NCBI GenBank assembly: GCA_001600175.1
Contig: BCJC01000008.1
Span: 374,781 to 438,780 of the forward strand
DNA length: 64,000 bases
Direction of reading: 5' to 3'
DNA from: Erythrobasidium yunnanense
Lineage: Eukaryota > Basidiomycota > Cystobasidiomycetes > Erythrobasidiales > Erythrobasidiaceae
How positions within the stretch are numbered: position 1 is the first letter of the stretch; each line of letters starts with the position of its first letter. The notes under the pieces are model-generated. The model did not search any database. It worked only from the letters and a program-made list of their open reading frames with translations, and was not told where the DNA came from. Positions 5,123 through 41,831 of the stretch are shown piece by piece. The translations under genes were made by a program, and so were the position numbers.

Positions 5123-8100
5123 CTATGGTATCATGATACGCGAGTATCCTTGCACTTCTGCTCTGCCTGCATGACGATGAGTACCTTCATCAGTGCGTGG
5201 TTTTTCGAAGTAGGGTCGAGTACTTACAGCACGGACACAAACTACTTCCGCCTTGGCCAGTACTTCTAGCAGCCAATTCTCCTCGACAGCCATCGCACAG
5301 CGCAAGGCATCTACAAGGCCATAGAACAATGCTTCTTGCTTCGGAGCAGCATACTACACACGTGCTTGCTCCTCTGAAGGAATCATCCCATGTATCTGTA
5401 TTCTTCGTGGCAGGCGCGGTCTGCCCACGACGTATCGCTATTGCAGTCGTCAGAGCTGTGTCTGATGCTGAAGGAGAGATTCTGGATGGAGATGCATTTG
5501 AAGGGTGTAAGAGATCATTGTACCGCCTTCGCGTGAGGGGAGAGCCTGTCTTTGACTTCGTTTGCAGATGCGCCAAAAGAACAGGTGTGAGATACTCATT
5601 CTCGTCATCGCTGTCTTCCAGCAAGCTGCTGAGCTCTTCTAGGCGGCCTGGCATGGGCGTGACTTCGCGAGATCTCGGTAGCGCCCTGAGCGACTCCTCG
5701 ACCTCGTCGGCTTCGTCACTATCGCTTGCACTGTCCGAGTCTTCATCACTAGGAGCGGTGCTGCCATTCGAGTAGTCGGAGTCTTCCTCATCATCGGCAG
5801 TCAACGCATCTCCGATGCTAGCTTGCGGCGTATTGCGCATCATGGTTCGCAGCTGTGCTAGTGGTATAGGTCGATTGACCGCTCCTTGTGCTTGCGTATC
5901 TGCCTCTGCGCCCAGGAGCCTCAAGAACCACGCAACTCTGCCTGTACCCCTCGCTAATCTCCTTACACGAGTTTTGCGGGCCAGCGGGCCTACGATATAC
6001 ACTTTGTACAGCAGCCAGACTGCTTGCAAGAATCTCCAACCCTCTTTACGCAAGCCGGAATTGCGGGACATGGGGTCGACGTCGCCTGGCTTGTTGGCTA
6101 TTGCTTTGATCTGCTGAATCTGGTTGTCGAGCGGGTTGGCAGAGCGAGCGAGTTGAGGCATATATGGATGAGATGGGTTCTGTATGAGGACTCTCCCAGA
6201 AGAAGCGAGAGCAGAGCTGTCTGAGCCATAAGGTACGGAAGTCTGGTTGAGCTCCACGTAAGTGGATGAGGGGAAAGAGAGAGCAGAGACTTCGTTGTTA
6301 AGGCCCTTCATGGCTGTAGTCTCGAGTGCTGCTGTACCATACTTGATGAGGGCCAGTATGAAGTCGTCATCTCGATGCGGAAGACTGCTCGAGTGTCCGA
6401 ATATCTCCTTATTGACCTTTCCTTCTGTGACGATCTGGACCAATCCTTTGATTGTGATCGTCAAGAGACTGCACGTCACGAAGAAGGCTTCCGGCAGTAT
6501 GCGGCCTAATGACTGTATCGCCGGCATCAAAGAGGCGTGGGCTACTGCAGCAGGATTAGCTGAGTCCTTGACTACTGATCGAGACGACTCACACTTGTCA
6601 GTCGTAGTTAGCCATAAGTAGAGCATGCTGCCTCTGCTGAGGAGGGTGAAGGATCCGGTGATCCAGAGACGGATACGCCAGGCTGGAATGGCTGCTATCT
6701 GGAGGGCCAATATTTCGGCCAGCTGCAAGAGGATGAGGAAGTATATCGCTCTTGAAGGAGGAGATGCTGGGTCGTGATACGGTACGGAGTGGAAATGCAG
6801 AAGGAGACCAAAGCTGAACAGATTCACCGGACTTATCAGGGTGAAGCTGTGAACAAATCGGTCAGCAAGGCTCTGAGTGAAGTGAGATTATGCATACTTG
6901 TGATCCAGAGCACGAATGAAGCTCTCGCTTGCACACGCAATGCATGTGGCTACGAAGCAGCTCCAGAGCACTTGAGCATGGGTGGTCTGATGCAGCTCCA
7001 GGGCGTTCTTGACGGAGTAGTAGTACTTGTTCGCGGGATTGACATCGGTACTGAGTCTCGCCATCATGCCCACAACCAGCAGGATCGCTCGCACAAGCAG
7101 CACGATAGCCGGTGCTCGACACATCGCTCTGACTTTCAGCGAGCTACGATAGGGGATCTGGACGTGAACAGTAGCATGGATCCGGTTGATGACCAGGCTG
7201 AGGAGGAGCAGTGCGAACGAGTATCGACTCGTAAAGAAGGCCAGAAACGACGGGAACTCGATGTTCGGCCGGGCGTTGTTTGATGCTGCAGCGGGACCGG
7301 CCTGACCACCAGAACCAGCTGAAGAAGTCATGGATCCATCGGGTCCTCCTCCGCTCATCATCTGTCCGCTGCTAGCTTGGTCAAGGAGTTGCTTGATCTG
7401 GCGGTAATTGCTTCGGACGTCGACGTTGCTCGCCCATGATTTGGCACTCAGCGCAGCAGACTTAACGCCTGCATATGACCTGCTGGCCAGGTCAGATGCA
7501 AAATGCTGCATCGCATGGAAAGTGCGATATGCAAGATGACGCTCGGAGCAGAGGCAAGCCGGGTGGTCAGATAAGCAGACTCGTGAGAATGGTGTATCGC
7601 ATTGCTAGGCTACTCCAAGCTAATGTAGATAGCCTAGACACAGCTGAAAAGGTACTCGGGCTTGTTGTAATCGGCCAAACCCTTGACTGTGATGCTGGGT
7701 CTTCGCTTGTGGCGTGAGATGCCTCATCACCAGCGGTAGAGCTTACAGACTCGCTTCTGAACCTGCTGAGTGCTTGTAAGCCGAGAGCAGTCGGAGCCAC
7801 CCTGCCCGCATTGAAACCGACGAATTGGCCAGGCATCAGGTCCATGTGTCCAACGGTGTGCGGTACTTCCATCACTCTGGCTGAAGATGGCTGATAGACC
7901 GTCGCAGGAAATGAAGCGCTGAGTCTACGCTTGTCTGGTGACGTGATCGTCAGCTAGAGATCGATCGACGAAGCGTCTGAGCAGACTCACTGCTGAATGT
8001 AGCTGGAACTACGACATCTCCCTCCTTCTTCTGCTGCATGTTTGCATTGGCAGCCGCTGAGCCAGTCAGCGGATGAGCCGCAGATTGCGCTGCGAGAGCC

Positions 8101-10206: not shown

Positions 10207-11523
10207 ATGCAGGCTGGGCAGCTTGTCGTGTTGACAGGAAAGCGCAAGGAAAGCGAGCTCAACAGTACTGTTCGCCTTGAAATCACTACTGGGGAGCTCC
10301 CATGCGGTCCCCACCAAAGTCTGTATCTGCAGCTCACACAATACTATGCCTATCTGGACGCGACGCAGCTATTACCAGCTCAGCGTTCGCGACTTCAATT
10401 GCAGAGCGTATATGTCCAAAGCGACACTCTCTTGATCGCCAAATCCGCACTTTTCCTGCCACAGTCGCAGGACTGCTCTACACCTCTCCTTGATCAAACG
10501 TATTTCCAAGGCCTTACTTCTAACTTTGGTCACTACAATACCTACTCGCCCAAAGACGTGAAGTATATGGTTTTCATCCACGTCCTCGACAGTCGTAAGT
10601 CGTTCACGCATTTCATCCGTGCAACAATTCTGAAAGCCTATTAAGCTCGACCTACCTTTTCCTCCCTCACCTACTCGGACCACAATGCAGTTCTCATTTT
10701 CCCTAACGAGCGTCCACATGAGAAGGCTATCTGGATCAATTGGCAGCAATTGGTCGAATTCTCTCCCTACTTCGGCGGGCTCTTCGGATCGGGCTTTCTT
10801 GAGAGCGACAATATATTGCCAAGCGTGAAAGACTGTCCTCAGACGATCACGCAGGATATTTCGCGCATAGCGCAGAATTACCGCAGCAGCAAAGTACGGC
10901 AGAGAAGTCCAAGCCTGGCAAATTCTGAACCAGAGCCGGACACCGCTGAGGTGGACGAGGGAGGATTCTTCGACTTCGAAAGCGATTTGGACCAGATACA
11001 CGGTATACGATATGCGATCATCGAAGATACTCCGTACGCCGTCTACCGAGCTGTCATTACCTGGATCCTTACTGGCAAGATCGGGTTCAAGGCCCTACGC
11101 TCGAGGTCCAGTAGTGTACAACAATCGAGTCCTGTCGTCAACAGCGCGGGAGATCCTCACTTTCGCGTACTAAGCGAGACAGTCCCTTGCTGTCCGAAAA
11201 AGATCTACAAGCTCGCGCACAAGCTGGACATTCCCGCCCTTTGTCAATTGGCCTTGAAAGATTACGAAATGCAGCTGGACTAGACCAATATCGTCAAGGA
11301 GCTCTTCTCATACTATGCACAGGTGTATCCCGAAATGCAGGAGACAGGAATGAGGGTTTTGAAGAAGTTCGCGGCAGAGGTAGTAGCTGAGGGTGGTTTG
11401 AAGGAGGCGCAAGAACTGGCAAAAGAGGGCACTGTCGACAGTGATTACGCGATTGGTCTACTTTGTCAAATTACGGAATATCTGGCTGAAAAAGCTTTTC
11501 CGAATTTCTTGTTCCTTAGCTAG
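10207..11523 (+). pseudogene. BTB/POZ family member A, interrupted by an in-frame TAG
   Basis: Leftmost of eight related BTB genes, and the only one on the plus strand. From ATG 10207 an N-terminal exon encodes the divergent first domain. A 51-base intron (10595-10645) follows at the position shared with B, C, E, F and G. The second exon has a BTB core (FSPYFGGLFGSGFLESDNI), an acidic insert, YAVYRAVITWILTGKIGF, then KKIYKLAHKLDIPAL. The frame stops at TAG 11281-11283, exactly where relatives have a Tyr, His or Thr codon before the NVLEEL-type motif. The same frame continues cleanly to 11523 (TNIVKELFS, EVVAEGG). One base change from a Tyr codon would explain it. It is either a recent pseudogene or a truncated protein lacking its C-terminal BACK-like part. 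Confidence 0.75.
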
Positions 11524-11550
11524 CTATCCTGTATGAGCGTTGTATTGTAT

Positions 11551-12801
11551 CTAAAGCCGCTCCATCATCTCTATAGCCACCTCCATCATTTCTCTCGTAT
11601 CACTCCCCTCCTTTCTAACGATTTGCAGCAGTGTCTTCAGACCGCCTGCGGCCTTTACTGCTGCCCAATTGCTTTCGAGCACTCGCAGGCCGGCCGCTCT
11701 TAGCTCCGGATAGAAGAAGCAGTTGGGAGAAAATAGCTCTTGCAAAACATTGCCAGTGGACAATTGAAGCTCGAAGTTTGACAGGGCCAACGCCATGAGG
11801 TCCTGAATACCCAATTGGTGGCACAGGCGATACAGAGACTTTGGAGAGGCTCCTAGCGGGAAGGTTCGTCCGCACTTGCTGTGGACGATCTTAATTGTGA
11901 GAAGGAGATCTCCCCTGTCAGTAACCACTGGAACAGCGATCTGTAGGTTCTGTAAGGCGTGTCACGTATAACCACGTAGAGAAGACTTGAAGGCGCAGTC
12001 TTTGAGCCTCTGTCCACAACTGCCCATGCTGATTCTTCACAATGGCCGGCTGGCGCCTCATCGTCCGAATCGTCTCCAAAATGATCGCTCTCACCGTCCT
12101 CTGCACGTTCAGCCGCAGCGATATCTGCCAGGTCTTGCTGTAGCGCTCCCATAATGTTGGATGTTCGCATCAATGGCTTTCCAGTCTCCGCAAATCCCCC
12201 AGATAACATAGATGCGAAGTATGAGGACGCTGCAGCGAGCATAGCTTTGTTTGCCCAGAGAACTTGCGGTGCAGATTTCCCTTCGAATGGAAAGATGAAC
12301 GCTAAGTTGTTGTCGTTCGTGAGCGAAAGACAAGGAAGCGGTGCATCTGGGCCAAAGGATGTTAGACATGAAAGTCGTATTGTCATAGGAAGCCAACCTA
12401 CCGAGTCTTTTCTTCGCAAAGTACGCAGTATACAGGAAGTCATCTGATATGGGAGTGTCCCATTCCTCCGTGTAACCACGATATGTACGGCCACTTTCGC
12501 TATTCAGTCCGAGGATTGTGAAGCTTGCCGCTTCGTGAGCATACGGGCTTATTTCAATTGAAACAGGCTTTGCAGATCTCGCGCTCGAAACGCTGATAGC
12601 TTTCAGCTTCCAGTATTTACGGAAGGCCGAGGAGAGTCCAGCAAGGTTGATTGTGCACTTGTTCGGCTTAAGGATGATCTCGAGAGTTTCGGTCTGCGCG
12701 GAGGAGTAGCTGATATCACGCAGCAGAACGCTGGCGGACTGAAGCTCGGTATCGCCCAATCTGAAGCCCTGGAAAGTCTTTTGCGGGACAGGATTGGACA
12801 T
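11551..12801 (-). pseudogene. BTB/POZ family member B, frame broken before the BACK-like part
   Basis: Divergent neighbour of member A, tail to tail with only 27 bases between. The start MSNPVPQ at 12801 leads into FQGFRLGD, the opening motif of the family. The shared intron is 12401-12347 (55 bases). The BTB core is present (VLWANKAMLAAASSYFASML), followed by an acidic Asp/Glu insert and YRTYRSLFQWLLTGEISF. Near 11850-11880 the frame runs into a stop after ASADEPSR, while the conserved continuation (SPKSLYRLCHQLGIQDL, then NVLQELFSPNCF and MMEVAIEMMERL) lies in another frame. No splice pair of plausible length bridges it. It is therefore probably a recent pseudogene, or holds a base-calling error. 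Confidence 0.7.
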
Positions 12802-13034
12802 GCTTAGAGAGAAGCGGACGTAGGTAGGTAGGAAAGAAGATGAGAGAAGGGGAACTGTCCTGCTAAACTTGAGAGGGAGCTTCACATCATCATCAGCTCA
12901 AGAAACCGTTCGACGGTCGGACGGCTTCCCGGGATGATCGTGGATGTCAGCACACGAAGCAGCAACACACATGGGTAAGGTCTTCCTGATACAGAAATTG
13001 CATGCTCCCAGTAGTCCAATATGCGATTCCACGC

Positions 13035-15393
13035 TCATGTCTCATATCTGAAGAGAGGACTCTTGTCTCCCATGTCTGCTAGTTCCTCGGTGGTGTAGCG
13101 GCTGTTGATGTCCTCCTGGCTCATGCTATCACGTCGTGCATTCTCGCGCTTCAGCAAGAAATGGAGTATGACAGCCAGGCCGCAAGCGATCGCGACGGCT
13201 CCCAGACACACGCCGTATCCGAGATAGTCTGCAAATTAGGTTTATGCGTCAATATGTCTTCCCTATAGCGCGTATCGGTATTGACGTACACCTCGGCCGC
13301 TGATTGGCGAGAAAGATGTTACTGCCAAGGATTCCGAACTGACAATGGTAGAATCATCAGAAACGTAGCAGCCACCGTTTCAACGATCTCCCCTTACGTA
13401 GTTTGTTATGCCGATCTGCATGTCGAAATCGTTAGCAGGTAGGCAAATGGCAGGAAATCGTCTTCTGCATACCTGCATACCGATGCCAATTCCTCTCTTC
13501 CATTCACCACTAAGATTATTGCTATTCCAAGCAATGACGGCTGGCACCACGCTGTAGGCCTGGAATACAGTACAGTCAGCAGTTCCTCAACAAGGCGCAT
13601 ACATGACCAGCTTACTCCAGCAGCTATGAGGTATACAGCGAAGAGTACCAGTCCGGGTAAGCGAGGTTGTGGTGTCGCTAAGCAAATGACCAGTCCTGCT
13701 ATCGAGACGATGTACGGGATGAGGACGTAGCGGGCTCTTTTGCCTGACTTGTCTGCAAAGACGGCGATAACCAGAGTAAAGATGGCCGCAAAGACATAGA
13801 TTGGCTGATGGAGATCATTAGCACTGCCGGAGGACTTCATGCAATTTACAGGTGTAGCCTCACGATAGTTAGTAGTTGCGCTTTTGCGCTAGTATAGTTG
13901 AGGGATTTGAGGATGGTCGGCAGGGAGAAGGACAATCCGTAAGTAAGTACGGCATCAGCACCATATATAAGACTGTAAGCATCGATCAGGACTGTGAGTT
14001 TGCTGTAGAACCGAGTCGGAGCCGGGCCTACCTCGTCATCCATATCTTGTAGTCTGTAACAGCTTGCTTGAGATACAATTTCTTGTATTTGCCTTTAACG
14101 CGTCCTTGTCGATCCATCGTTAAGCGGACTCTCATGTACCGCTTCTTATCTTGGTCAAGCCATTTGACACTTTCGATACTGTCGTAGAGGAAGAAGGGCG
14201 CAGCGAAGCCCAAGACCACTGTAGCAAGTCCCTCTATGACTGCGGCAGGAGAAATGGAAGACTCAGTACCGGATGAGCGACAATAATCGGGCGCGCTTAC
14301 TGAAGATCCATCTCCATCTAGCACGCAAATTACAATCAATACCGATATATAAGCCAAATGATACGATAAGCTTGCTCACCCTGCGAGTCCTCCCAAGCCA
14401 TCCATCTTAGCCAGTGCAAATGCAAGGAGGCCTGAGAAGGCTCCTGCGACGGATGCGCTACTATACAAGTAGCTCATGCGTCGCTGTGTTTCTTGTCGAC
14501 AGTACCAGTTGCTCAGAATGAACATTGCGCCAGGAAAGAATCTGATTCAAGCTGACATTAAGCATGGTAGTGAGATACTTGCTCAGTAGTAGACCTACGC
14601 GGCTTCAGCCATGCCTAGGAAGAATCTGGTTGCCAGTAGACCAGAGAAGTTTTTGACAATTCCCATCAATGTCACTAATACACGGGATTAGCAAGGTACA
14701 ATTAAATGCCATGTTGGCAGCACTCACTGACGGTGCCCCAGCTTACGACTGGGTTGCGTAAACATACAATCTCAGTGCACACTTCTCTGTGTGGCCACAT
14801 TGCGAACTCACTACAAAATGGAAGCCAGATCGAGGGCCTGAAGTACTTGAGGGCGATATTGGCGCCGAGCTCAAAGGTACCGTATGCGGCAAAGAAGATG
14901 CTGAGAGCAGCGTTGTATTGCAGTCCCGACATCCTGAGGTCTGCCTCCAGTCCTTCGATTCGTGCATTGCCTGTCACATGACGAGCATTCAGTCTGCGCC
15001 ATCATGAATAGATAGTCACTGCTTTATCACCTATGTTACCTCTATCCAGGAAAGCCGCCTATATATGCGCGTTCAGAGATAAGGTGGGGAGGAACAGCAT
15101 GAGCGGACGGATCTTACGAGATAGATCAAGACCAGGGCCGGCACAAGGTGCCAGTCAGCTCTTCGCAAGACCTTCTTGCCTCGACCACTTTCATCGAATT
15201 CGCGAACAAAATCGATGTCTTCTGGCGTGAGGGAAAGGTCTTCTTCGCTAGTCACGACTGCATGACTGCCTTTCTCGCCAGGTGGTTCAGCGCCCGAGTG
15301 TTCGATGTTTTCTGTATCAGCTGTGAATTTGGCATCGTTCGCGAGCGAAGAGCTCGTCCTATTCTTCCTGGTCTTCGGTTGGGCAGCCGCCAT
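13035..15393 (-). CDS. MFS anion:cation symporter, allantoate permease (Dal5) type
   Basis: Predicted plasma-membrane transporter of the fungal Dal5/ACS branch of the major facilitator superfamily, whose members move allantoate, nicotinate, pantothenate and similar organic anions. The start MAAAQPKTRK at 15393 gives a cytosolic N-terminus of about 90 residues. It is followed by the typical LRRADWHLVPALVLIYLV, the first membrane helix with the RxDWxxxP-like motif of this branch. Helices follow in many small exons (YNAALSIFFAAYGTFELGANI; later VSIAGLVICLAT). The last exon gives LGYGVCLGAVAIACGLAVIL and ends at 13035 with a short cytosolic tail (DINSRYTTEELADMGDKSP). At least nine introns. It sits inside the BTB island between B and C and shares no evident function with them. 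The substrate cannot be read from sequence. Confidence 0.85.
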
Positions 15394-15631
15394 TGCGAGA
15401 TTCTGCCGCCGTTGAGCAGCAATTTGTGGTGTCACGACAAGAACGAACAGACAGTGGAACAGCGCATAGAGAGATGAGCATCTCGAAAATCCTCCCGCTT
15501 GTCGGGAGTGCGAGATGCCGGACGTCACGCGTCTTGACAGCTAGCTCAGGGCAGACATGGTAATAGTCAGGGCATGGTTCACTGCGAAATTGCGAAACTA
15601 CGTACAGTGATTGTGCTACAACAAAAAGCTC

Positions 15632-17061
15632 CTAGGCACTTCCGTCCCTGACCCGTCTAAGGCGTGGATTGCCAGTCCCATGAACCCTTCTCAGGATATC
15701 GAAAGCGACCGTCATCATTTCCCTAACATCACTATTCCCGGCATCTATCAACAGAAGGATGTTGTCTAGGCCACCTGACACCTCAACCTGCGCCCATTGC
15801 TGATTCAAGACCGTCAAAGCAGCTTCTTTTAAAGTCGGATAGGAGAAACAGGAGGGCGTGAAGAGCTCTTCCAGCACATTCGCGTACGTAAGCTGCGACT
15901 TGAAATCTTCTGCAGCCGCCTGCGCCAGTACTTGGATGTTAAGCTGGTGAGCTAGCTTGTATACCATTTTGGGATTGACTGGCGTGAGAGTCGAGGTCGT
16001 GAGGCGTTCAAATTCGATTTTGCCTGTGAGAGCCCAATTCAAGAATGCTTCATCCGTTCTGCAAGATGCATCCCGAATGACGATGTAGCAGATAGAGCAA
16101 GCAGGAGGTTGCGCCGACAAATCTAGCAGGCTTTCCGCTGCAGGACTGCTTGCTGCTACATCTCCGTCTTGACTCAGGCTAGTATCTGGAGCACTCGATA
16201 GGTCTGCGCCTGCCCGTACAGGTTGTTGACCAGCGATTCGTGCCAACTCGCCAGCACAGATCCCCGCCAAGTGCGAGGTCTCCTCTAGGACATTATAGCT
16301 TTCCGAATATCCGCCTCCGAAGATCCTTGCGAAGTAGGTGGACACACGCGACAAGTTTTCTCGATTTGCCCAAAGAGCGGTCGTCCTATGCGCAGAGTCG
16401 AGAGGGAAGACGAGGGCCACATTGTTGCCGTTCGTGAGAGAGTAGCATGGCAGTGGAGAATTGATAATTGCCGGGGCGATGAGATCTGGGGCTGACCGAC
16501 AGTCAGTCCCGAGTAGCAAATTATTGTGACAGACTTACGACGATTTCCTATCCTTGCCGCTGGCAGAGGATCGCATTGGAGCGTGTGTACAACGTCTTCG
16601 TAGACGGTCTCAGAGTAGCGGCGTCCTTCGCGTTGGAGATACCGATTGCCATGAAATTGAGCGCCCGCGAAACATCGAAAGCCTGCCTCCCCTCCAGGAC
16701 CCTCCGTCAAGGCAAGCCTGCCCTGTCCATCTAGTGTACTATTGAGTGGGATCTCTATCTGGTGTCCCGTAGCCGAGCGCAGCAAAAGAAAGACGGGCTT
16801 CCAGTAGTTTACGAATGCTCCATCGATGCCTTCGAACGAAACGAAGGCGACTGGACCACCCAGCAAATGCAGTCGCATGTAGCCTCCGTTATAAGCTGCA
16901 TCGATTACTCTATCAGAAGTTCCAAGGCGTTCGAGGTCTACGACGGTCGGCTGATCTCTCGTGGTTTGCCGGGATCCATCTGAAGGGCGAGGAACGAAGG
17001 AATCACCACATCGAATACCTTGAAAGAACAGAGGTGGTCTCAGAGGAGTTGGTACGGCCAT
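15632..17061 (-). CDS. BTB/POZ family member C (intact, two exons)
   Basis: Intact member of the BTB island, 460 residues. Start MAVPTPLRPPLFFQGIRCGD at 17061. The first exon encodes the divergent N-terminal domain, with VSFEGIDGAFVNYWKPVFLL (the conserved YWK region) and YSETVYEDVVHTLQCD at its end. The 47-base intron is 16538-16492. The second exon has SLTNGNNVALVFPLD, the BTB core LSRVSTYFARIFGGGYSES, an insert of roughly 70 residues, then EAFLNWALTGKIEF, KMVYKLAHQLNIQVL, NVLEELFTPSCF and the C-terminal REMMTVAFDILRRV. Family comparison suggests a CUL3 substrate adaptor or homodimerising scaffold. That role is inference; only the fold is read from sequence. Confidence 0.8.
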
Positions 17062-17425
17062 GCTGTGCGGACAGAAGCAAAAAGCCAGATCTTGCGAAAC
17101 CCAGAAAAGTCGTGAGGCTGTCACAGATCCGTGCACTTGTCGAACGAGCAGCTAGTAGTGATAGGTGCGCGGAGTATGACTGTAAGGCTGGAATTGCATA
17201 GACGCGCGAGCATAGTACCTGAGGGCCAAGACTGAGATAAAAGAAGCAAAAGATGCATTGGTTGCGATTTTCGTACAACGACCGTACTTCTCGGGAATGT
17301 CATTGATAAATCAGTCGTGAACTGTCATTGCGAAGCCTTTATATCTGCAACAGCTCGCCTTTAGACTGGCGGAGAGGAAGACCTAGCTGCTGCGGAAACA
17401 GAAAGTTTCTTCTTTCCTGGTATTT
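17062..17425. other. Spacer between BTB members C and D
   Basis: About 360 bases upstream of member C and downstream of member D. It should hold the promoter of C and the 3' end of D. I see no gene, repeat or remnant of a BTB exon. Confidence 0.5.
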
Positions 17426-18400
17426 CTATGTGATGAACTGATCAGCGATGTTGTTCAGTCCATCTAGGAAAGCCAAATCACCCAGATCTCCGCTTTTCGA
17501 GTTTGAAGGCTGGCCGTAAACGATCTTGGGAGCCATCTTGAGTATCTCGACAGCAAGCAAAGCTATCTCCGTAGTATCGCTGTCGCCTGACCTAATCAAG
17601 CTTGTGATCTGGTCGAGTCCGCCTGAAGAGATGATTTGCTCCCAGTTGCTTTGCAGAGCTTTCATTCCAGCTTGCTGCAAAGTGGGCAAGGTAAAACAGA
17701 TGGGCGAAAAGAGCTCCTCAAGCACGTTCTCGTATGTGAGTTGGTCTGCAAAGTTGTCCGCGGCCAGCTGCTCCAAAGGTTTGATATCGAGCTGATTTGC
17801 TAACTTGAAAATAAGCTTGGGGTTGGCTCTGGGTAGGAAGGACGGTGCCTTTGGGGATTTGAGAGGTGCAAAATGGATCTTGCTGGTGATAAGCCATCGG
17901 AAAAGGGCTTCATACGTTTTATACGAGGCGTCTTTGACTGTCACGTAATGAATGGCAGTGGACGGTCGCCAATAGAGTGCACTTGCAGTAGTCCAGCCGG
18001 TGGTTTCGTCTTCCTCGTCTGCCCTCTCTGCTATAGCTTCGGGCTCGCCATTGGCTCGCTCATCAGCGATGATCTTGGCCAAGTCGTTCTGGTACGCCTG
18101 TACGATCTTTGATGTCTGTACCAGGACATTCTCACTCTCTGAGAATCCTCCTTCGAACATGGCACGAAAGTAGGACGAGACGCCTGTAAGCTGTTTCTTG
18201 CTTGCCCAGAGCACGGGTGGAGGGTAAATGCTCTTCTCGAACGGGAAGACGAAGGCTACATCATTGCCATTTGTGAGAGAGTGGCATGCTAGCTGAGGTG
18301 AGAGTGTATGATCTGCAGAGTAGAGTCGTTTAATAGGCGTAGGTACTGCAAGCTTCTTCAAGGTGCGACGCTCTCGGACAGGTGAGGGTGTTCGAGACAT
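17426..18400 (-). CDS. BTB/POZ family member D, short form without the N-terminal domain
   Basis: A single open exon of 324 residues from ATG 18400. Instead of the family's N-terminal domain it begins with a short basic leader (MSRTPSPVRERRTLKKLAVP). It then enters the shared second-exon sequence directly: HSLTNGNDVAFVFPFEK, PVLWASKKQLTGVSSYFRAM, an acidic insert (AERADEEDETTGW), YKTYEALFRWLITSKIHF, FKLANQLDIKPLEQLA, NVLEELFSPICF and IALLAVEILKM. The tail after this is longer than in relatives. It may compete with full-length members if the N-terminal domain binds substrate, but that is inference. No first exon could be found upstream. Confidence 0.8.
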   Translation of the reverse strand: MSRTPSPVRERRTLKKLAVPTPIKRLYSADHTLSPQLACHSLTNGNDVAFVFPFEKSIYPPPVLWASKKQLTGVSSYFRAMFEGGFSESENVLVQTSKIVQAYQNDLAKIIADERANGEPEAIAERADEEDETTGWTTASALYWRPSTAIHYVTVKDASYKTYEALFRWLITSKIHFAPLKSPKAPSFLPRANPKLIFKLANQLDIKPLEQLAADNFADQLTYENVLEELFSPICFTLPTLQQAGMKALQSNWEQIISSGGLDQITSLIRSGDSDTTEIALLAVEILKMAPKIVYGQPSNSKSGDLGDLAFLDGLNNIADQFIT

Positions 18401-18938
18401 GATGTTCTTCTATTTGTTATTTGTTTATGATTCTGGTTCTGCGACTTGTGTAGATCCGGCTCCTCGACTTCTGCAAGGCGGATCCAACTTGACAGCGCTT
18501 TCGCAGATAAGGCTGGCGAGCTTGAGTTTGTCCGAATGTCTTGTTATGGATAGATGCGTAAGGGTGATGACTGTTCTGTGCTTCGCTTTGCGCATACGCT
18601 GCGAGCTGCGAGCTGATGTTACGAAAAGTAGACGCGTCGAGCAGGTCTGTGCTTGCGCTTGATAGAAGAATGGCTAGCAGAGATGAATGTGGTGCTACTT
18701 TCTGTCAGCTTTGAGGCTACTGCCAGCCTGGGTCGACCTGAAACAGACGAGTTGGGCGGAAGCAGACGAACGGTTGGTCAAGGCAACAAGCAAAGGAACA
18801 TATTTGAGCATCATCGTTCAATCGCAGTAGAGTCTTGGTGCAATTGCATAATCAAAGTAGTGATAGACATCTTGAAGTGCGAAAGTTGCCTCATTCTTCT
18901 CCTGCGCCTACCATCTGTGCGCAGACGCAGGGCCCCCC
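18401..18938. other. Spacer between BTB members D and E
   Basis: About 540 bases, longer than other spacers in the island. I looked for a lost first exon of member D and found no recognisable FQG or YWK motif. It probably holds the promoter of D and the 3' end of E. Confidence 0.45.
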
Positions 18939-20383
18939 TCACGAATCTTCTCGTTCCTTTCCAAGCCTATCTGCCCTCTTCAGAATCTCGACCGCGACCA
19001 GCATCATCTCCTTCAAGTCTGCATTATCTGCCTGGATGAGCGAAAGAAGATCGTCCAGACCGCCGCAATTCTTGACTTCCTCCCATTGCTTCTCGAGGGC
19101 GTTATAGGCAGCTTCTCTGAGTGCCAAATGGGCGAAGCAGGTAGGCGAGAAGAGTTCCTTCAAGACGATCGAGGGGCTCAGCTGGCTCTCGAAGTTATTC
19201 ACTGCAATTTTCTGGAGCTTTTCGATGCCCAGATGATGAGCTAGCTTGTATATGGACTTAGGAGATGCATATGGGTTCGGAGTGTACATAGCAGACGATT
19301 TCAACCTTGAAAACTGAATTTCGCCGGTTTCGACCCAATGGAGCAGAGCCTTGTACGTCTTGTAATACGCATGATTGATAGTAACATAGTGCATTGTGAA
19401 AGCAGTGGTAGAGTGGAGTGACTCCTCTGCGCTCTCATTGACCATACCCGCCCCGGTGGCCGGAGCGGGTGTATCTGGATCTTCGTCTGTGTGGTCGCTG
19501 CCTTCTGCTTCGCTTTCGTCTGAATCACTCGAAGCTGAACATTTGGATCGACACTTATCGCGTCCAGCCTTAGCAATCCTGGCCAGCTCGAGATTGGATT
19601 GCTCCAACATGTTCGACATTCCTGTCAGGACATTCTCATTCTCCAGATATCCTCCCGTAAACATCGCTTCGTAATAAGTGGACAGCTGCATGAGCACTTT
19701 CTTGCAGCTCCAAAGTACGACAGGAGAGGAGAAGGATTCATGGGGGAAAACTAGAGCGACATCATTGCCGTGCGTCGGAGACTGATGCGGCGAAAAAGGC
19801 TTGAACTTCGAGGAGCTGCCCGGTACTGAGAAGCGAGATATGACCAGACATAAGCCCCGAAAAGTCGAACTTCAGCACGGCGTGAGCGGAACTTACTGAA
19901 GGTTGGTCCAACCCGACGCACGAACTGGACCGTGTAGGTAACATCGTGATACGCAGTATGAAGTGCTTCATGATCTCCGATACTGGCCCGAATGTCCCTT
20001 TGTACCTTGCCAGTCTCGTAATGGCAGGCATGCCCAAGGGTGATCAAATTGCCCTCTTCCATTGCGCATGTAGGGAGGAGGATAATCTTATTGATGTCTT
20101 TCGAAGAGATGACCAGGCATGCGGCTTCCCAATGCTTATCGAATTCAAGGCTCTTGTCTCCTAGCTGGATGTATGGAGGATCATCGATAGGAAGAGATAG
20201 AGTCATGCCCTCAGATCCGTTCAGCTTGTAGGGACCGATAGGCTTCAAGTCAAGCTCGAGATCGCCATGGTCGGGGTCGTTAAGAACGCCTCTCTTTGGG
20301 ACTGCCTGGCCGAATGAGGCACCATCTCGGAAGCCTTGGAACCAGAAACCTGCTGGAACTTCATACGAGGAGGTTATCGTCAT
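18939..20383 (-). CDS. BTB/POZ family member E (intact, two exons)
   Basis: 457-residue member. The start MTITSSYEVPAGFWFQGFRD at 20383 matches the family opening; an in-frame ATG at 20440 is possible. The N-terminal domain has LEFDKHWEAACLVISS (the family's YWK position reads HWE) and HTAYHDVTYTVQFVRR at its end. The 71-base intron 19896-19826 gives a clean join into SPTHGNDVALVFPHES. The BTB core is LMQLSTYYEAMFTGGYLEN. The acidic insert is long, about 80 residues rich in Ser/Asp/Glu. Then come YKTYKALLHWVETGEIQF, KSIYKLAHHLGIEKLQKIA, VLKELFSPTCFAHL and LKEMMLVAVEILKRA. Nearest relatives by eye are F and G. Confidence 0.8.
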
Positions 20384-20741
20384 ATTGAAGCGAATGCAGG
20401 AGCTGCGACGACTGGTGCCGCTTCTGGCTCGCCTAGACATGCATCAGCTTCGCTGGCCAAAGTGGCCGGCCCCTGTAGGCGTTGGACAAGCTTGCATAAA
20501 AGGGGTCACGATATCAGCGTTCGCAGTCTTCGTGCAGGATCATTATCCTCCTAGTAATCATGGTGTCCGTTGCAATTAGGAGAATTGGAGGCAAGCAGAG
20601 CCGCGATGCAAGAATCGGCGTAGTGCATGCTTTTGCAGCATCTTTGACATGGAGGAATCGATTTACTGCGCTTTCATCATACAAGAAGCACCTGCATGCT
20701 CGTTTGCGGACGCATGCTATTCCGCCTCGCTCTTCCAGAAC
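20384..20741. other. Spacer between BTB members E and F
   Basis: About 360 bases with the presumed promoter of E and the 3' end of F. No gene or repeat seen. Confidence 0.5.
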
Positions 20742-22091
20742 TCAACCGCTAAGCTGCGAAGCCCGTTTCAGTATCTCCAATGCCACCTTCATCATCTCCT
20801 TCGTATCTCCTTGATCCGACTCCACCAGCGAGAAGATATTATCCAGACCGCCAGACTCCTTCACCTGGGCCCAGTCCCGATCTAGCACCTGCATCCCAAC
20901 TTCCCCGAGGACCGGATACACGAAGCAAGTAGACGAGAAGAGCTCTTGCAATACATTCTTGTGAGAAAGCTGCGACTTGAAGTTGGCAGCGGCAATGTCC
21001 TCGAGTTCTTGAATGCCGAGTTGATGAGCCAGCTTGTACGTAGACTTGGCCGAGGGCTTAGAGGAAGAAGATGCAGAGTGGGTAGATCGAAGAGGCGCGA
21101 AGCTGATTCTTCCGGTAGTAGCCCATCCCAGTAAGTGTTCATACGTCTTGTACGCTGTGTCTGATATCGTAACATAATTGATGGCGGACACTGAGGAAGA
21201 AGGTGAACGCCCTGCTGCGGCCGTCTGTATTGCACTTCCATCGCCGATGGCTTCATCTTCCAGATCTGAATCGTCCGAATCTGGAGCTGTAGGCGGTGCT
21301 TTGGCCTTCTCTGCCTCAACAATCCTTGTCAAGTCATCCTTACAGACTTGTAGAAGCTGCGAAGTCTGCAGAAGAACGTTCACACTTTCCGAGTAGCCGC
21401 CAGTGAACATAGCCTCGAAGTAGTCCGAAAGCTTCATCAAAGTCTCTTTCTTTGTCCACAGAACAGCAGGAGATGGGGTTGTCCTTTCGAAGGGAAAGAT
21501 GAGCGCCACGTCGTTCTCGTTGATCATCGAATAGTGAGACCGAGGACCTCGCAGTGTCGGCGTGACAAACGGGGGATCTACGAGGATTGTTACTATTAGA
21601 TGAGCAGAAGTATGTGAAGAAGCTGACCTACTTGGCTCGGCGGAGATCAAGCGGTCAAATTGAAGGATACAGATGACGTCCCCGGACATGCGACACTCTC
21701 TTCGCCTCCAGGACAGGATCCCCTCGCTGGCCTGACCTCCTTCGTTCAGCGAACAAGCGTAGGCCTGGCCTCCAGCGTGATCTCTGTATGCTCCAAGAGG
21801 TGGTCCAATGTTGTAATGCACGCCACTACCCGAGAAGAGCGAGCTTTCGATGAGACGAACAGGCTTCCAATCTTCGAGGAACTCTCGACTGACGCAGACC
21901 AAGATGGTCGGTCCATCACCCCAGATGTGCAGCTTGATGCCGTCGCCATAATCAGGTGAAGTAGTTACGGATTCCTGAGTCGAAAATGGTCTGAGTTTCA
22001 CATAAAGCACTTTCTTGCTTTCTATCAAGCTGGCATGAGCACGGGTATCATCGATAGTGCGCACGCGATGAAAGAACAGTGAGGATGACAT
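20742..22091 (-). CDS. BTB/POZ family member F (intact; 54-base intron with no stop)
   Basis: Start MSSSLFFHRVRTIDD at 22091 is chosen because FFHRV aligns with the family opening (FHGV, FQGF). The frame is open upstream to an ATG at 22346, so a longer form cannot be excluded. The N-terminal domain has VSREFLEDWKPVRLIESS and CRMSGDVICILQFDR. At the shared intron position there is a GTAGGT..CGTAG segment of 54 bases, a multiple of three without stops, so the gene reads through as one frame; spliced length is 431 residues. The second part has NENDVALIFPFER, LMKLSDYFEAMFTGGYSES, an acidic insert (DSDDSDLEDEAIG), YKTYEHLLGWATTGRISF, YKLAHQLGIQELEDIA, NVLQELFSSTCFVYP and KEMMKVALEILKRA. Confidence 0.78.
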   Translation of the reverse strand: MSSSLFFHRVRTIDDTRAHASLIESKKVLYVKLRPFSTQESVTTSPDYGDGIKLHIWGDGPTILVCVSREFLEDWKPVRLIESSLFSGSGVHYNIGPPLGAYRDHAGGQAYACSLNEGGQASEGILSWRRRECRMSGDVICILQFDRLISAEPSRSASSHTSAHLIVTILVDPPFVTPTLRGPRSHYSMINENDVALIFPFERTTPSPAVLWTKKETLMKLSDYFEAMFTGGYSESVNVLLQTSQLLQVCKDDLTRIVEAEKAKAPPTAPDSDDSDLEDEAIGDGSAIQTAAAGRSPSSSVSAINYVTISDTAYKTYEHLLGWATTGRISFAPLRSTHSASSSSKPSAKSTYKLAHQLGIQELEDIAAANFKSQLSHKNVLQELFSSTCFVYPVLGEVGMQVLDRDWAQVKESGGLDNIFSLVESDQGDTKEMMKVALEILKRASQLSG

Positions 22092-22432
22092 TAATTGTAT
22101 ACCACGAATCTGGAGCAAGAAGGAGCGATCATAGGTACGCCTCAGGAATCCGGTCTTCTGGCCCAAGCAAAGCTGGGGACTGTGCATATCGTGAGAGAGG
22201 CGCAGATGGACGCAAACAGAGCCTTGAAAAGCATCTTGAAGTGTGGGGAGCTCAATTGCGAGTGAGAAGTACGAGGAATCGGGCGAAGGCAGAAAAGGCG
22301 GAAGCTCGAAGTCAGGCAAATAGGAGCGAGGTAGATATTGCGCCATTATAACAGTCCTCCTAGGTCATACAAAATTACGCCTACGTATACCTAGAAGCGT
22401 ACAGAAACCGGTTCCGGCTGAAAGCTAGCTCA
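22092..22432. other. Spacer between BTB members F and G
   Basis: About 340 bases. The part up to 22346 stays open in the frame of member F and could be coding if the upstream ATG is used. Otherwise it is promoter of F and 3' end of G. Nothing else seen. Confidence 0.45.
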
Positions 22433-23756
22433 CTAGCTACCGAGCGACTGAGACCTCTTCAGGATCTCCAACGCCATCCTCGTCATTTCCTTCGATTCAC
22501 CCTGCTCTGAACCTAACAGTTTAAATATACCATCCAGTCCACCCGCTTCTTTGACCTTGCCCCATTCACGTTCGAGCACTTTCAACCCGGCATCTCTGAG
22601 CTCCGGATAAGCGAAGCAAGTACTGGAGAAGAGCTCTTCTAGTACATTCTTGTGAGTGAGCTGCGATTGAAAGTTTGCGACGGCATCATTTTGAAGTGCC
22701 TTGATGCCTAATTGATGAGCTAGGCGGAAGATGGACTTCGGAGAGGGCTTTGATGAGGATTCAGAAGGATGTGTTGACTTGAGAGCCGCATATTCGATTT
22801 GGCCGCTGTATGCCCAGTCTAGTAAACCTTGATAAGTCCTGTAAGACGTATCGCGAATCGCGATGTAGTGGATTGAGGCAGAGGCAGCTGCCGCTTCCGT
22901 CTCCTGCTCAGCCTGATCATCGTTCTGCTCCATGCTGCCATCATCATCGGCGTCAAAGTCGCCTGGTGTAATATCTGACGGCCGGCCCTTCCTTCGCTCT
23001 TCGACTTTGACCTTTAAAACATCTTTCCTGGCAGCTTCGAGGATTTGCGAAGTCTCCACCAGAATGTTGTCGCTTTCGAGAAAGCCTCCAGTGAACATTG
23101 CTTCGAAATAGCTTGAGAGCGCCATCAATTTTGCCTTGCAGGCCCATAGTACACTTGGGCATGACGGCTTTTCAAAAGGAAAGATAAGAGCTACATCAAT
23201 GTCGCCGCTAAGCGATCTATATGGCCGAGGAGTGGGTATGGCAGTCTCTGCCAGTTCGCCTACTGATGGATTTAATCAGAGTCTGTAGCTCTCGGTGTCA
23301 AAGCTAGGACAAGGGCCTACGTATATCCATGGGTACTGTTCGCTCGAATTGGAGCTTCACGAAGATCTCGATGTGAAACATTGACCCGGCAATCCATTCG
23401 CGACCTGGGGACTGCATGCTGAACTCGTACATCTGTCCCTTGCCGCCCGTCCTGTAGTATCCCACAGCGTTTCCTGCGAGCGCGTGTATAGTCTGTACGC
23501 GGCTGCTGCTGGTAAAGGACAGAAACGCGGGCTTCCAATATCCCGTGAATTCCTCGGGGACGCGCACAAACAGATAGGGTGACTTGGGAAGGATTCGTAG
23601 CTCCATATGACCTTCAAGATGTACAGAATGGCGGTTGTTTGGGGAAGGGGCAAGTTCGCAAACTCTGGGACTGTCCGGATTGGAATCTGTAGCATCTGTC
23701 TTCATAACGCCATGAAAGACCAAGGAAGGTTGTAGCGAGCTTATGGTGTACGGCAT
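22433..23756 (-). CDS. BTB/POZ family member G (intact, two exons)
   Basis: 421-residue member with start MPYTISSLQPSLVFHGVMKT at 23756. The N-terminal domain contains VRVPEEFTGYWKPAFLSFTS, the clearest copy of the YWK signature, and MFHIEIFVKLQFER at its end. The 58-base intron is 23320-23263. The second exon has DVALIFPFEKPS, LMALSSYFEAMFTGGFLES, an insert with a short acidic run (DFDADDDGSMEQNDDQAEQE), YRTYQGLLDWAYSGQIEY, IFRLAHQLGIKALQNDA, NVLEELFSSTCFAYPEL and KEMTRMALEILKRSQ. Its C-terminal half is closest to F and H, as expected of neighbours made by recent tandem duplication. Confidence 0.8.
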
Positions 23757-24109
23757 TTCGATGAGTGGTGCAGAGGAGAGCTACTCTCGCTGCTCCAGGC
23801 GGCACGCAAGCAGCTCGGCGGAAGGGCCGGTGCAGACGTCAAACAGAGGACAACGCTGGGTCGCGATGCAGGCATATTGCATGAGCATGAGGGATAGTTG
23901 CTTTAGTGGATGCTAAATGGAACGGTGTTGCTTCCATATGCTATCGAGATGCACCTCAGACAAGAGGAGGACTGTTGCGAGAAGCAATTCTAACGCGAGG
24001 AATGCAACCGGAAACCGAGGATTGACTAAGCTTTGAAACTCTGACAGCAGCTTTACTGCTGTTTCTCTAACACGATTCCGATTCTCATCGGAAGCCGTCG
24101 ATAAAGCAC
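23757..24109. other. Spacer between BTB members G and H
   Basis: About 350 bases with the presumed promoter of G and the 3' flank of H. No gene or repeat seen. Confidence 0.5.
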
Positions 24110-25231
24110 CTAGCCATCAAGCTGAGGAGCCTTTCTCAGAATCTCCAACGCGACCTTCATCATCTCCTTCGCATCTCCACGATCCGACTCTACCACCTCC
24201 AACACCTTATCCAATCCACCAGCTTCTCTAACTTGGCTCCATTCGCGCTCTAACACTTTCATCGCGGCGTCTTTGAGGACGGGATACTGTAGCAAGAAGA
24301 AGAGAAGAGTTCTTCAAGTACATTTGCGTGACTGAGCTGTGACGCGAAGTTGGCGGCAGCTGCATCTTCCAATGCTTTGATGCCGAATTGATGAGCCAGC
24401 TTATATATTGACTTGGGCGAAGGTAAATCGACGCTGTGTGGAGAACTGCCGGACTTTGCGGACGTGAGAGATGCAAATATGATGCCCCCCGTCGAATGCC
24501 ACTTGAGAAAAGCTTCAAATGTCTTGTAGGCGATATCGCGGATAGGCACGTAATAGATCGGAGTCGGTAGGATGGAAGCGGATGATGAGTTCTGGCCTAT
24601 CTTTCCCTTAGAATAGCGATTGAAGTCCCCTTCACTGTCTGAATCGCTAGCTTCTCCTTGTTTCTTCTGAGGCCTCCCACGCTCTTTCTCGGCAATTCTT
24701 GCGATATCTTTCATGCAAGCCTCCATGAACTTCGAAGCCTCCACCAGATGATTGTCATTTCCCAACTCGTCTCCCGTAAACCAAATAGCGAAAGAAGGCG
24801 AGAGACTGCAGGTCTGATTTTCTAGCCCATAAGAGAGGAGGAGATGGGACATGAAAAGGAAAGACGAAAGCGACAACGTTGCCGTTGGAGAGAGTGTGGT
24901 ACACCGGAACGGGTGCAGTCTGCTCGTTCGTAGCTTGACCTGCGACCTGAGCCGTCTCTTGGGTCGACTGATCGTACACATCGTCCAGCAGAGGCACGGT
25001 GGCAGCAGTGCTGATAGATTGCACCGAACTTCTGCGAACGCTCGTTTCGATCCCATCGCCGATCGCCATAACCGCTTGAAGCTTCGCGAAAAAGTCGTTC
25101 CGAGGCTGGGCAGAACGAGGCAGAAGTTGAGCCTCAGGACGTGACTCTCTCCGACTTGTCCCTCTATTCCTGTACCGATTTGGTCGTTGAGACGAATTGT
25201 CATATTTGTCCCAGCGTTCGTTGTACTCCAT
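24110..25231 (-). pseudogene. BTB/POZ family member H, two frame breaks
   Basis: Rightmost copy. From ATG 25231 it has an unusual basic N-terminus (RPNRYRNRGTSRRESRPEA) in place of the family's first domain, then HTLSNGNVVAFVFPF and LLWARKSDLQSL. Near 24810 the frame shifts: the expected continuation (FAIWFTGDELGNDN, EASKFMEACMKDIARIAEKE) is in another frame, consistent with loss of one CT from a short CT run. The insert, YKTFEAFLKWHSTGGIIF, YKLAHQFGIKALEDAA and NVLEELFSSSC follow. A second break near 24285 separates this from YPVLKDAAMKVLEREWSQV and KEMMKVALEILRKA. Two independent breaks argue for a pseudogene rather than a single sequencing error. The protein sequence is still close to G and F, so loss looks recent. 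Confidence 0.75.
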
Positions 25232-35251: not shown

Positions 35252-36508
35252 CTATTTGAAATGTGATTCTGCCTTTGCAAATCGCCTGAAAGGCATAGCT
35301 GGGTCCTGCGAGGCTTGACAGTCTATACCATGTTCTGCTAGACCATCCGACAACTTCCGCAAGCCCTCCCAGCCTGACCACGTCCCATCCCAAACATCCG
35401 GTATCTGTATGTTCCTGAGACTTGGAAAGCGCACTTTATTGATCAATACTCTGACCAAAGGTGCCCAGAAACCGACCGCGTCTCCTGGGTCACGCCATGA
35501 CGACACATCGATGCAGAGTGTGTGGAGGCCTGAATACTTGTGATGCGGCTCACCCATGCAGGCTATAAAGTCTACAAAGGACAGCAGATTTGTGTCCCCT
35601 AGACTGTCCAGACACATCGTTCTTAAGGATAGGATTGTCGGGGCCTCTCTGGATTGAGGATGGAGCCCAAGAACGCGTGGATGAGCCCCAAGGTGCAAGT
35701 GTCGCACATTCGGCTTGCTAGCTAATGCCTCCAGAATATCCGTGATATCGAATTGACCAAAGCGCTGAACAAACTCTAGCGAGGTGACGGTGGGCGGAAG
35801 GAGGCGTGTGAGAGCTGATGCGGGATAAGCGAAGGCTTCTAGTTGCAGACAGCTGAGTGAGGACAATCCTTGTACAAAGCCGCAGAAGGAGTCGAAGGCG
35901 TCCATGCCCACAGCGTTGATATGAGATAGCGAGAGAGCGGTAAGATCGAAGAGAGCGGGAGACTGTGCGAGCACATCTGCGAATCCGACCGCACGGGTCA
36001 TGGCTGGACAGCGAAGGTGAGGCATTGCGATCTGAAGTGTTTGTAGACCGTCCCTGCGGCACAAGGCTTCGAAGGTTGCGATCCAGGTAGATCTGTCCAG
36101 CTGAACTTCTTCTTCCAACTGCACCAGAGCGGAGTCGTACGGGAGGTATATGGCAATACCCTTGAGCCCTTTAGCTTCATCCAATAATCTGCCAAAGTAA
36201 CTATCGCGCTCTCGCAACCATTTCCTCCGCTCGCGTGCATCGGCAAGATAGTCTTCATGGGCACCAGTGACAAAAAAAGCGAGGTCTATGTAGCGGATAG
36301 AGCTGACTATCGTCGGTACCACGGCATCGAGGAAGCGACCGAGCTTTAGGTTGTCCACAAGCTGCGTGCTGACACGCCTGAATAGCATATCGCGAGCTGG
36401 CACTGTCCAGGAGGAGTGTACGATGGATAGTGCTTGGACGGTTGGGATGTCCATATGCTTAAGTACCTCGAGCTTGATATCGTCAGGCACGCTGACCAGA
36501 CTGGCCAT
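35252..36508 (-). CDS. F-box-like protein 1 with LRR-like repeats (intronless)
   Basis: A single-exon gene of 418 residues. The first 45 residues form an F-box-like motif: SVPDDIKLEVLKHMD, then VHSSWTVPARDMLFRRV. F-box proteins dock on Skp1 and bring substrates to SCF ubiquitin ligases. The rest has irregular leucine-rich repeats (LTALSLSHIN, LSCLQLEAF, VRHLHLGAH, LRTMCLDSL, LHTLCIDVS). No introns, unlike nearly all single-copy genes around it. It is paralogous to the genes at 36969-38210 and 41832-43148; shared pieces include HSSWT, IFRR/LFRR, FCxFVQxLxSL and a conserved C-terminal RFA/RRF pattern. SCF membership is inferred. Confidence 0.75.
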   Translation of the reverse strand: MASLVSVPDDIKLEVLKHMDIPTVQALSIVHSSWTVPARDMLFRRVSTQLVDNLKLGRFLDAVVPTIVSSIRYIDLAFFVTGAHEDYLADARERRKWLRERDSYFGRLLDEAKGLKGIAIYLPYDSALVQLEEEVQLDRSTWIATFEALCRRDGLQTLQIAMPHLRCPAMTRAVGFADVLAQSPALFDLTALSLSHINAVGMDAFDSFCGFVQGLSSLSCLQLEAFAYPASALTRLLPPTVTSLEFVQRFGQFDITDILEALASKPNVRHLHLGAHPRVLGLHPQSREAPTILSLRTMCLDSLGDTNLLSFVDFIACMGEPHHKYSGLHTLCIDVSSWRDPGDAVGFWAPLVRVLINKVRFPSLRNIQIPDVWDGTWSGWEGLRKLSDGLAEHGIDCQASQDPAMPFRRFAKAESHFK

Positions 36509-36968
36509 CTTGTAACAGGACTTTTGGGCGCGAGATTTGCAGATAAGGCGCGACTGATCAAGTTATTCAGGACTCAAGAGTGCTTTTGATGGCTTTGCAG
36601 AAACCCGCATGAAGACCACGGGCCGTCTCTGCCTGGCAGGCAGCCGAAAGGTCGTTGAAGGAACGCAGAAGGTGGAAGCTCTCTATGTCATCAGAGCCCG
36701 CCAAGCATGCTTCCTTTGATATGTACCACCAATCCATCTTAGTTGCGATTCGTCAGAGTTACGCAAAGAAGAAAACGTAGTCTGGCAAAGCTTCACGTAA
36801 AATGCGTGCCTATTGTAGACAGTAGTTTTGCTTGCATACTATTATCGCTCAAGCTATACGTATCGCAGTGGCTGTTGCAATAATTTAATAAACGGGCAGA
36901 TCTAGATGACCCAAACCTCCACTCCTCACATTCGTCGTCTGTCTTGAGCAGCTGCCATTCTTCTCTTC
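36509..36968. other. Spacer between F-box-like genes 1 and 2
   Basis: About 460 bases with the presumed promoter of gene 1 and the 3' end of gene 2. No gene or repeat seen. Confidence 0.5.
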
Positions 36969-38210
36969 CTATAAGAACCCCTCGAGTGCTAATGCGAACC
37001 GCCGGAAAAGTCTTGCTGGATCGTGCGAGATCTGAAGCTCGATGCCAACGTTGGCGAGGCTTTGTCTGAATTCCTGCGACTCCAACTCCGATAGCCACCA
37101 CTTCTGCATCGGTAGCTGTACGCGCTTCAGGCTTGGGAAGTGTGCTTTATCTGCCAGTGCACGGACGAGAGGCTGCCATGCTGCTCGAAAGCCATCTGTA
37201 ACCTTTAATACGTGAACATCGAGACAGAGTGTATGGAGCTGAGGATACTGGGCCGGCTCCAGAAAGGAATGAAGGTGGAGCATCCATTTCTCAGGATGGC
37301 TGCCTGGGCTTTCCAGAGACAGAGTCTCTAGTGGCAATACGCAAGGCGGGCCTTGGTCGGGCTCGCTCGAAACACCACCAACGTTCGGAGCGACCAAGCG
37401 GAGGTGCCGCAGGTTGGGCTTGCCAGCCAATATTCCGAGGAATCGGACCGTGCCGAAAGCTCCAGAATGACGCAGATATTCGAATGAAGTGATGGTGGAT
37501 GGAACGATCCGCGCGAGAGCCGACATAGGGCAGATGAAGTTGTCCAGTTGCAGATGTCTTAGCGAGGGCAAGCTCTGTACAAAGCTGCAGAAGGAGGTCA
37601 TGGCGTCCCCTTCGTGTTCTGCGTATCCACTCAATGAAAGGGTTGTAAGGTTGACCAGGGAGCCAGATTGCGCAAGCAAATTTATGCATCCAATAGGACG
37701 GACCATTGGATATTGAGCGCCATGCGGTAGAGCGATCTGTAGCGTTCGCAGACTGTCTCGACTGCACAGAGCCTCAAAGGTCTTGATCCATGCGGATTTA
37801 TCCAGTTGAGGTTGCGCGTCGGGGTTGGCACAGGAAGCGTCGTAAGACAGATAGATGCAGAGGCTTTGAAGTCCCTCAGCTTGACGCAAGATCCCTCCTA
37901 AATAGCGTTCGCGCTCTTGTAGCCATTTCCTCCTCTCGTCCGTGTCATGGATGGGCTTGTCGTTGAAGTGCAGAGTGAAAGACAGCCCCAGCCTTCGAAT
38001 CAGGCTGCCTGTTGCTGGTAAACTCTCGCGAAGTAGACGACCGAGCTTTGCATTCGTCCGGTTGTTGGTCTCGATACGCCTGAAGATTACACTCCGCGCA
38101 ACTGTAGTCCAAGAAGAGTGTACGGTGGCTAAACTATGGGTGTCCCGGACATCCAGATGCTTGAGAATCTCGACTTTGATATCTTCAGGGATGCAGACCA
38201 GGCTGGCCAT
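36969..38210 (-). CDS. F-box-like protein 2 with LRR-like repeats (intronless)
   Basis: A single exon of 413 residues from MASLVCIPEDIKVEILKHLD at 38210; an in-frame ATG 51 bases upstream is less like the paralog. The F-box-like start is followed by VHSSWTTVARSVIFRRIE. The body has LRR-like strands: LRTLQIALP, LTTLSLSGY, LRHLQLDNFICPMSAL, LRHLRLVAP, LETLSLESPG and LHTLCLDVH. DERRKWLQERERYLGGILRQ aligns with the same segment of gene 1, so the two arose by tandem duplication. Substrate unknown. Confidence 0.76.
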   Translation of the reverse strand: MASLVCIPEDIKVEILKHLDVRDTHSLATVHSSWTTVARSVIFRRIETNNRTNAKLGRLLRESLPATGSLIRRLGLSFTLHFNDKPIHDTDERRKWLQERERYLGGILRQAEGLQSLCIYLSYDASCANPDAQPQLDKSAWIKTFEALCSRDSLRTLQIALPHGAQYPMVRPIGCINLLAQSGSLVNLTTLSLSGYAEHEGDAMTSFCSFVQSLPSLRHLQLDNFICPMSALARIVPSTITSFEYLRHSGAFGTVRFLGILAGKPNLRHLRLVAPNVGGVSSEPDQGPPCVLPLETLSLESPGSHPEKWMLHLHSFLEPAQYPQLHTLCLDVHVLKVTDGFRAAWQPLVRALADKAHFPSLKRVQLPMQKWWLSELESQEFRQSLANVGIELQISHDPARLFRRFALALEGFL

Positions 38211-39109: not shown

Positions 39110-41655
<2,546 letters not shown>

Positions 41656-41831
41656 AATCATTGTCAGCTATATCTGAAGCGGGAGCAACGAAAGCCTTGA
41701 AGGATTGAAGGATTCTAGCTGTTTTGTCGGAATTTCTAGCCCCGCATGGGCTGTATCTAGTCTTACATCATCTCAGATCAATGCTCGTATGTAACATCGT
41801 TCACTGCTCTACTGAGACTGCATACATATTA

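Follow-up and report, generated by a model that had tools for sequence, protein, structure and literature searches.

Eight tandem paralogs within 15 kb of the Erythrobasidium yunnanense genome probably encode substrate adaptors of CUL3-RING ubiquitin ligases whose substrate domains have diversified, a reading to which we assign a probability of roughly 0.6. The paralogs lie in a 64-kb stretch of one contig, hereafter the window. Each protein is proposed to consist of a variable beta-rich N-terminal domain, a BTB core with a long insert, and helices resembling a 3-box and the start of a BACK domain. We infer that the protein docks on CUL3 with its BTB core and 3-box, making contact by the phi-x-E loop and the first hairpin of BACK, that the N-domain (lacking in copies D and H) chooses the target, and that the target is then ubiquitylated, presumably to be degraded. 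If so, divergence of the N-domain would cause each intact copy to direct the ubiquitylation of a different set of proteins. Paralogy, gene structure, motif conservation, the unequal divergence of the two halves and three gene disruptions were computed directly, and the BTB fold was modelled.

Organization of the island

A six-frame profile search of the window identified eight paralogous copies, A to H, between positions 10207 and 25231, with E values between 1e-124 and 1e-63 for their main pieces. No ninth copy was detected in the 64 kb, and reversed or shuffled sequence gave no matches. When each copy was left out in turn, a profile of the remaining seven recovered it every time (E 2e-45 to 4e-105). 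The island is bounded by the ATG codons of A (10207) and H (25231), and A is on the plus strand, with B to H on the minus strand. To the left is a ThiF-family (ThiF/TcdA-like) gene at 8.9-10.1 kb, and to the right is SLD5 at 25.7-26.5 kb. An earlier note, made from the sequence, had described eight related genes in 15 kb, all but A on the minus strand, between a tRNA dehydratase (the ThiF-family gene) and SLD5; this layout is borne out, with the addition of an MFS-type transporter between copies B and C (MFS_1 E 4e-23 for a hand-spliced model). The genes of the island are as follows.

10207..11523, plus strand: copy A; exon 1 10207-10594 (divergent N-terminal part), exon 2 10691-11523 (BTB half)
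11551..12801, minus strand: copy B; exon 1 12801-12402 (N-domain), exon 2 12346-11551 (BTB half)
13022..15400 (limits approximate), minus strand: MFS-type transporter, multi-exon, unrelated to the BTB family, inside the island
15632..17061, minus strand: copy C, intact; exon 1 17061-16539, exon 2 16491 (or 16485)-15632
17426..18400, minus strand: copy D, intact; single exon, 324 aa, lacking the N-domain
18939..20383, minus strand: copy E, intact; exon 1 20383-19897, exon 2 19825-18939
20742..22346, minus strand: copy F, intact; exon 1 ending at 21632, exon 2 21577-20742
22433..23756, minus strand: copy G, intact, with the best Pfam BTB score; exon 1 23756-23321, exon 2 23262-22433
24110..25231, minus strand: copy H; two frameshifts, phi-x-E lost

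In six of the eight copies (A, B, C, E, F and G), a phase-1 intron at the same place separates two exons. This intron is located just before the BTB half and thus splits it from the N-domain; neither the common intron nor the separate N-terminal domain was part of the earlier description. Introns modelled in the family are 47-96 nt long; such short introns, like the genes present in the window, would be in keeping with a fungus. Alignment with G makes position 22091 a more likely start for F than 22346. A profile search did not find an N-domain in H. The motif order that had been reported for every copy holds generally, except that A is divergent (it has FPNE and lacks EMMxVAxEIL) and H lacks the core motif.

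Searches of viral and prokaryote collections revealed no relative, and no Rfam family or tRNA was found within the window. In the literature, we found no paper on a fungal tandem BTB family.

Disrupted copies

Five of the eight copies (C to G) have open frames of 324-460 codons. The others are interrupted: A by an in-frame TAG at 11281-11283, ahead of the 3-box; B by one frameshift at about 11853-11856, after helix A3; and H by frameshifts at about 24803 and about 24291. These three occupy the array's edges (A and B on one side, H on the other) and are probable pseudogenes.

Alternatively, the disruptions might come from mistakes in assembly or sequencing, or be very short introns, such that all eight genes work. 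In keeping with this idea, B and H retain 83-86% of the columns conserved in intact copies, which is within the range of the intact copies themselves (76-94%), so any decay must be recent. Also, candidate GT-AG introns of 35-37 nt in H and 23-26 nt in B could restore the frame, as could longer candidates at the price of conserved sequence. However, the short candidates fall below the length range of the family's modelled introns, and in H they would excise conserved BTB or 3-box residues, so introns of 23-37 nt are an unlikely cause of the frameshifts. Moreover, no comparable defect is seen in the five sister genes or in three F-box-like genes of the window, and H has also lost phi-x-E, while its insert is no longer acidic. 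We therefore regard intactness of all eight genes as rather unlikely. In any case, it bears on the number of working copies and not on their mechanism, and it is compatible with a role as CUL3 adaptors.

One segment of H is described here in its own right. At 24287-24321 (minus strand), 35 nt with splice-like ends (GTACTT...CTACAG) lie exactly over the second frameshift; their removal would restore the frame but take conserved 3-box residues with it.

The BTB half and its CUL3-contact features

Pfam BTB is matched by six of the eight copies, with a best E of 1e-6, and two of these matches are above the curated cut-off. The two halves of the protein were folded separately because N-exons were misplaced on the BTB half when the pieces were aligned to full-length F. 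An AlphaFold model of the BTB exon of G, made with an 11-row alignment, has a pLDDT of 72.7. When this model was compared with the PDB by using Foldseek, 60 matches were obtained at E <= 1e-3, with probability 1.00 for BTB structures, and the best 50 of the 60 are all CUL3 adaptors (KBTBD2, KBTBD4, KLHL3, KLHL11, KLHL22, SPOP and KEAP1). The BTB fold that had been proposed for the island proteins was thus recovered by structure prediction. The TM-scores, 0.30-0.45 on the query and up to 0.67 on single-domain targets, are modest, which would be expected of a model with some 70 low-confidence residues.

Profile comparison leads to the same fold. After removal of the insert, the family profile and SPOP align across 129 columns, from helix A1 through the 3-box, with a score of 41.4 and an E value of 7e-6; the best of 100 shuffles scores 20.4, and the SPOP sequence was checked against PDB chains. 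Within this match, the 3-box aligns to that of SPOP without gaps, whereas the C-terminal piece taken alone gives a weak match (E 0.08). The phi-x-E motif occurs as [FY]xE in seven of the eight copies (A to G) and is lost in H. In an ungapped profile alignment, it sits on M83-S84-E85 of KLHL3 and on the phi-x-E of SPOP. In the complex of KLHL3 with CUL3, the phi residue (M83) buries most surface, and the E85A substitution severely disrupts CUL3 binding (PMC3616122). The corresponding features of G, together with the insert considered below, are as follows.

23075..23083, minus strand: phi-x-E of G (F-L-E), at the position of KLHL3 M83-S84-E85
22874..23059, minus strand: insert of G, about 62-64 aa, a helix followed by an acidic low-complexity stretch
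22433..22660 (approximate), minus strand: 3-box/BACK-like C-terminal helices of G

These results favor the suggestion that the proteins are CUL3 adaptors: phi-x-E and the 3-box, both features of CUL3 contact, are present, and the best Foldseek matches are adaptors of this kind. CUL3 binding itself is predicted. A BTB-BACK design had also been suggested, and here the BTB fold and a 3-box/BACK-like start are supported by the profile-profile alignment and the model, but there is no Pfam BACK match. It could also be that conservation of phi-x-E among the paralogs reflects inherited structure rather than selection for CUL3 binding.

Two other assignments were considered for parts of the protein and rejected. 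A PDB profile search matched the C-terminus to designed ARM-repeat proteins at up to 1e-7, but only through the sum over many repeats, and single repeats were not significant. For a Skp1-type BTB, hhalign to an unverified Skp1 sequence gave an E of 0.36, compared with 7e-6 for SPOP.

Departures from textbook CUL3 adaptors

The resemblance to BACK is structural and at the profile level only, given that Pfam BACK yields no match up to E 10. The beta1-alpha1 N-terminal element of long-form BTB domains, through which most MATH-BTB and Kelch adaptors are predicted to dimerise (PMC1257465), is not visible, and the stretch preceding the core is rich in Pro and Ser and is modelled as disordered. In addition, all eight copies carry an insert of 58-79 residues between phi-x-E (helix A2) and strand B3. 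The insert comprises a modelled helix and then a low-complexity tail, with a net charge of -5 to -10 in A to G and +2 in H. It adjoins the cullin-contact region and, being located right after phi-x-E, could hinder docking on CUL3.

In view of these departures, perhaps the proteins are BTB scaffolds that lack a ligase role and whose BTB core and beta domain make other protein contacts, for example in transcription or signalling, with phi-x-E as a structural leftover. BTB folds are known to make many non-ligase contacts (PMC1257465), and the absent dimerisation helix and the large insert at the CUL3 face would suit such proteins. However, the best 50 of the 60 structural matches are all CUL3 adaptors, and phi-x-E and the 3-box both persist at near-saturated silent divergence. 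A scaffold function is accordingly judged considerably less probable than a role as CUL3 adaptors.

The N-terminal domain

The N-domain is most clearly seen in G.

23322..23756, minus strand: N-domain of G, predicted all-beta with eight strands, presumed to bind substrates

The AlphaFold model of this domain is all-beta with eight strands and has a pLDDT of 68, and the other four of five models are near 49. Profile links between the N-domains of different copies are clear for G and C only, and most N-domains are linked weakly. Pfam gave no match to the N-domain, and Foldseek did not reveal any PDB or viral structure match to its fold at E <= 1e-3. The layout of the proteins prompted a comparison with MATH, and this identity was rejected: Pfam did not match it, hhalign to the MATH domain of SPOP was no better than to shuffles, and MATH was absent among the listed Foldseek matches. 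The N-domain is a candidate for an unassigned beta fold.

Between copies, the BTB half is 27-49% identical, whereas the N-domain is only 10-28% identical. This inequality is a pattern known from the F-box and MATH-BTB adaptors of nematodes, in which positive selection acts on the substrate-binding part and not on the cullin-binding part (PMC4334554). By analogy, the N-domain is probably the substrate-binding part of the island proteins.

Age and mode of duplication

Copies that lie farther apart in the array are less similar (Mantel r -0.49, p 0.001; without A, -0.43, p 0.02), and the conserved blocks of E, F, G and H recur every 1.7-1.8 kb. Both observations imply tandem duplication. No inner branch is supported in a tree of the copies. 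Among intact copies, 61-76% of four-fold sites differ, compared with 75% at saturation, and 51-65% of residues differ, which argues against recent duplication. Either the duplications are old or sequence evolution is very fast; recent birth is not seen. Fast birth and loss had been suggested for the family, and only the loss finds support, in the three disrupted copies, whereas the near-saturated four-fold sites speak against the birth.

It is conceivable that the island is a decaying array with little present function, that is, an old local expansion that is losing members, with the rest transcribed rarely or never. Disruption of three of the eight copies (A, B and H), at both edges of the array, fits this picture. 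In contrast, the five central copies are intact, and their motifs are conserved even though silent sites are near saturation, by which time pure decay would have broken them. The long open frames of C to G thus appear to be under constraint, and we consider decay improbable as the main explanation and retain that of CUL3 adaptors.

Other genes in the window

Several observations were made elsewhere in the window. Three tandem F-box/LRR-like paralogs with open frames, 38-44% identical, are found at 35252-43208 (minus strand); a sugar transporter separates the third from the second. The third copy scores weakly for the F-box (E 0.08). This set is 10-18 kb from the BTB island, and the window thus contains two tandem sets of putative ubiquitin-ligase adaptors. 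At 5190-6887 (minus strand), an open frame carries a RING-type zinc finger at its C-terminus (Pfam zf-C3HC4_3, E 5e-7) and may be a ubiquitin-ligase gene. Finally, an open frame of 557 aa at 59258-60928 (plus strand) has a long low-complexity stretch rich in Ser and Ala and, after it, a likely transmembrane segment. This frame has no Pfam match; its product looks like a surface sensor-type protein.

Comparison with known systems

The island proteins resemble MATH-BTB proteins such as SPOP and the members of the nematode and grass expansions. In both, a beta-rich N-terminal domain precedes the BTB domain and 3-box, the N-terminal part is variable and the BTB part conserved, and expansions include pseudogenes (PMC4334554, PMC3030570); also, the island profile aligns to the BTB-3-box region of SPOP. 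However, the N-domain is not recognizable as MATH by Pfam, hhalign or Foldseek, and the island proteins have no visible long-form dimerisation element and carry the 58-79-residue insert inside the BTB domain. BTB-BACK-Kelch proteins (KLHL3, KBTBD2, KEAP1) share the BTB fold and the position of phi-x-E and supply the best Foldseek matches. In contrast to them, the island proteins end shortly after the BACK-like helices, have their extra domain at the N-terminus, and match neither BACK nor Kelch repeats in Pfam.

Skp1 and Elongin C, which are short BTB proteins, resemble the island proteins in having a core BTB that lacks the N-terminal helix, and Skp1 carries low-complexity insertions in its BTB domain (PMC1257465). 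However, the insert of Skp1 follows A3, whereas that of the island follows A2, and the island proteins have the phi-x-E and 3-box of CUL3 adaptors. Among fungi, BTB/POZ and F-box classes are reported to occur in orthogroups with developmental expression in mushroom-forming species (PMC8893723), and these are likened to the island by class of ubiquitin-adaptor gene, not by sequence. In the two model yeasts, only five and six BTB proteins have been counted (PMC1257465).

If the island proteins are indeed CUL3 adaptors, they represent a large local set for a fungus, and both the requirement for dimerisation and the gating of docking by the insert become testable. As a speculation to which we give little weight, CUL3 adaptors that lack the dimerisation helix, use an acidic insert as a possible regulator of docking, carry a diversified beta domain and are situated beside an F-box array might be a fungal counterpart of the nematode F-box and MATH-BTB repertoires that have been proposed to recognize foreign proteins.
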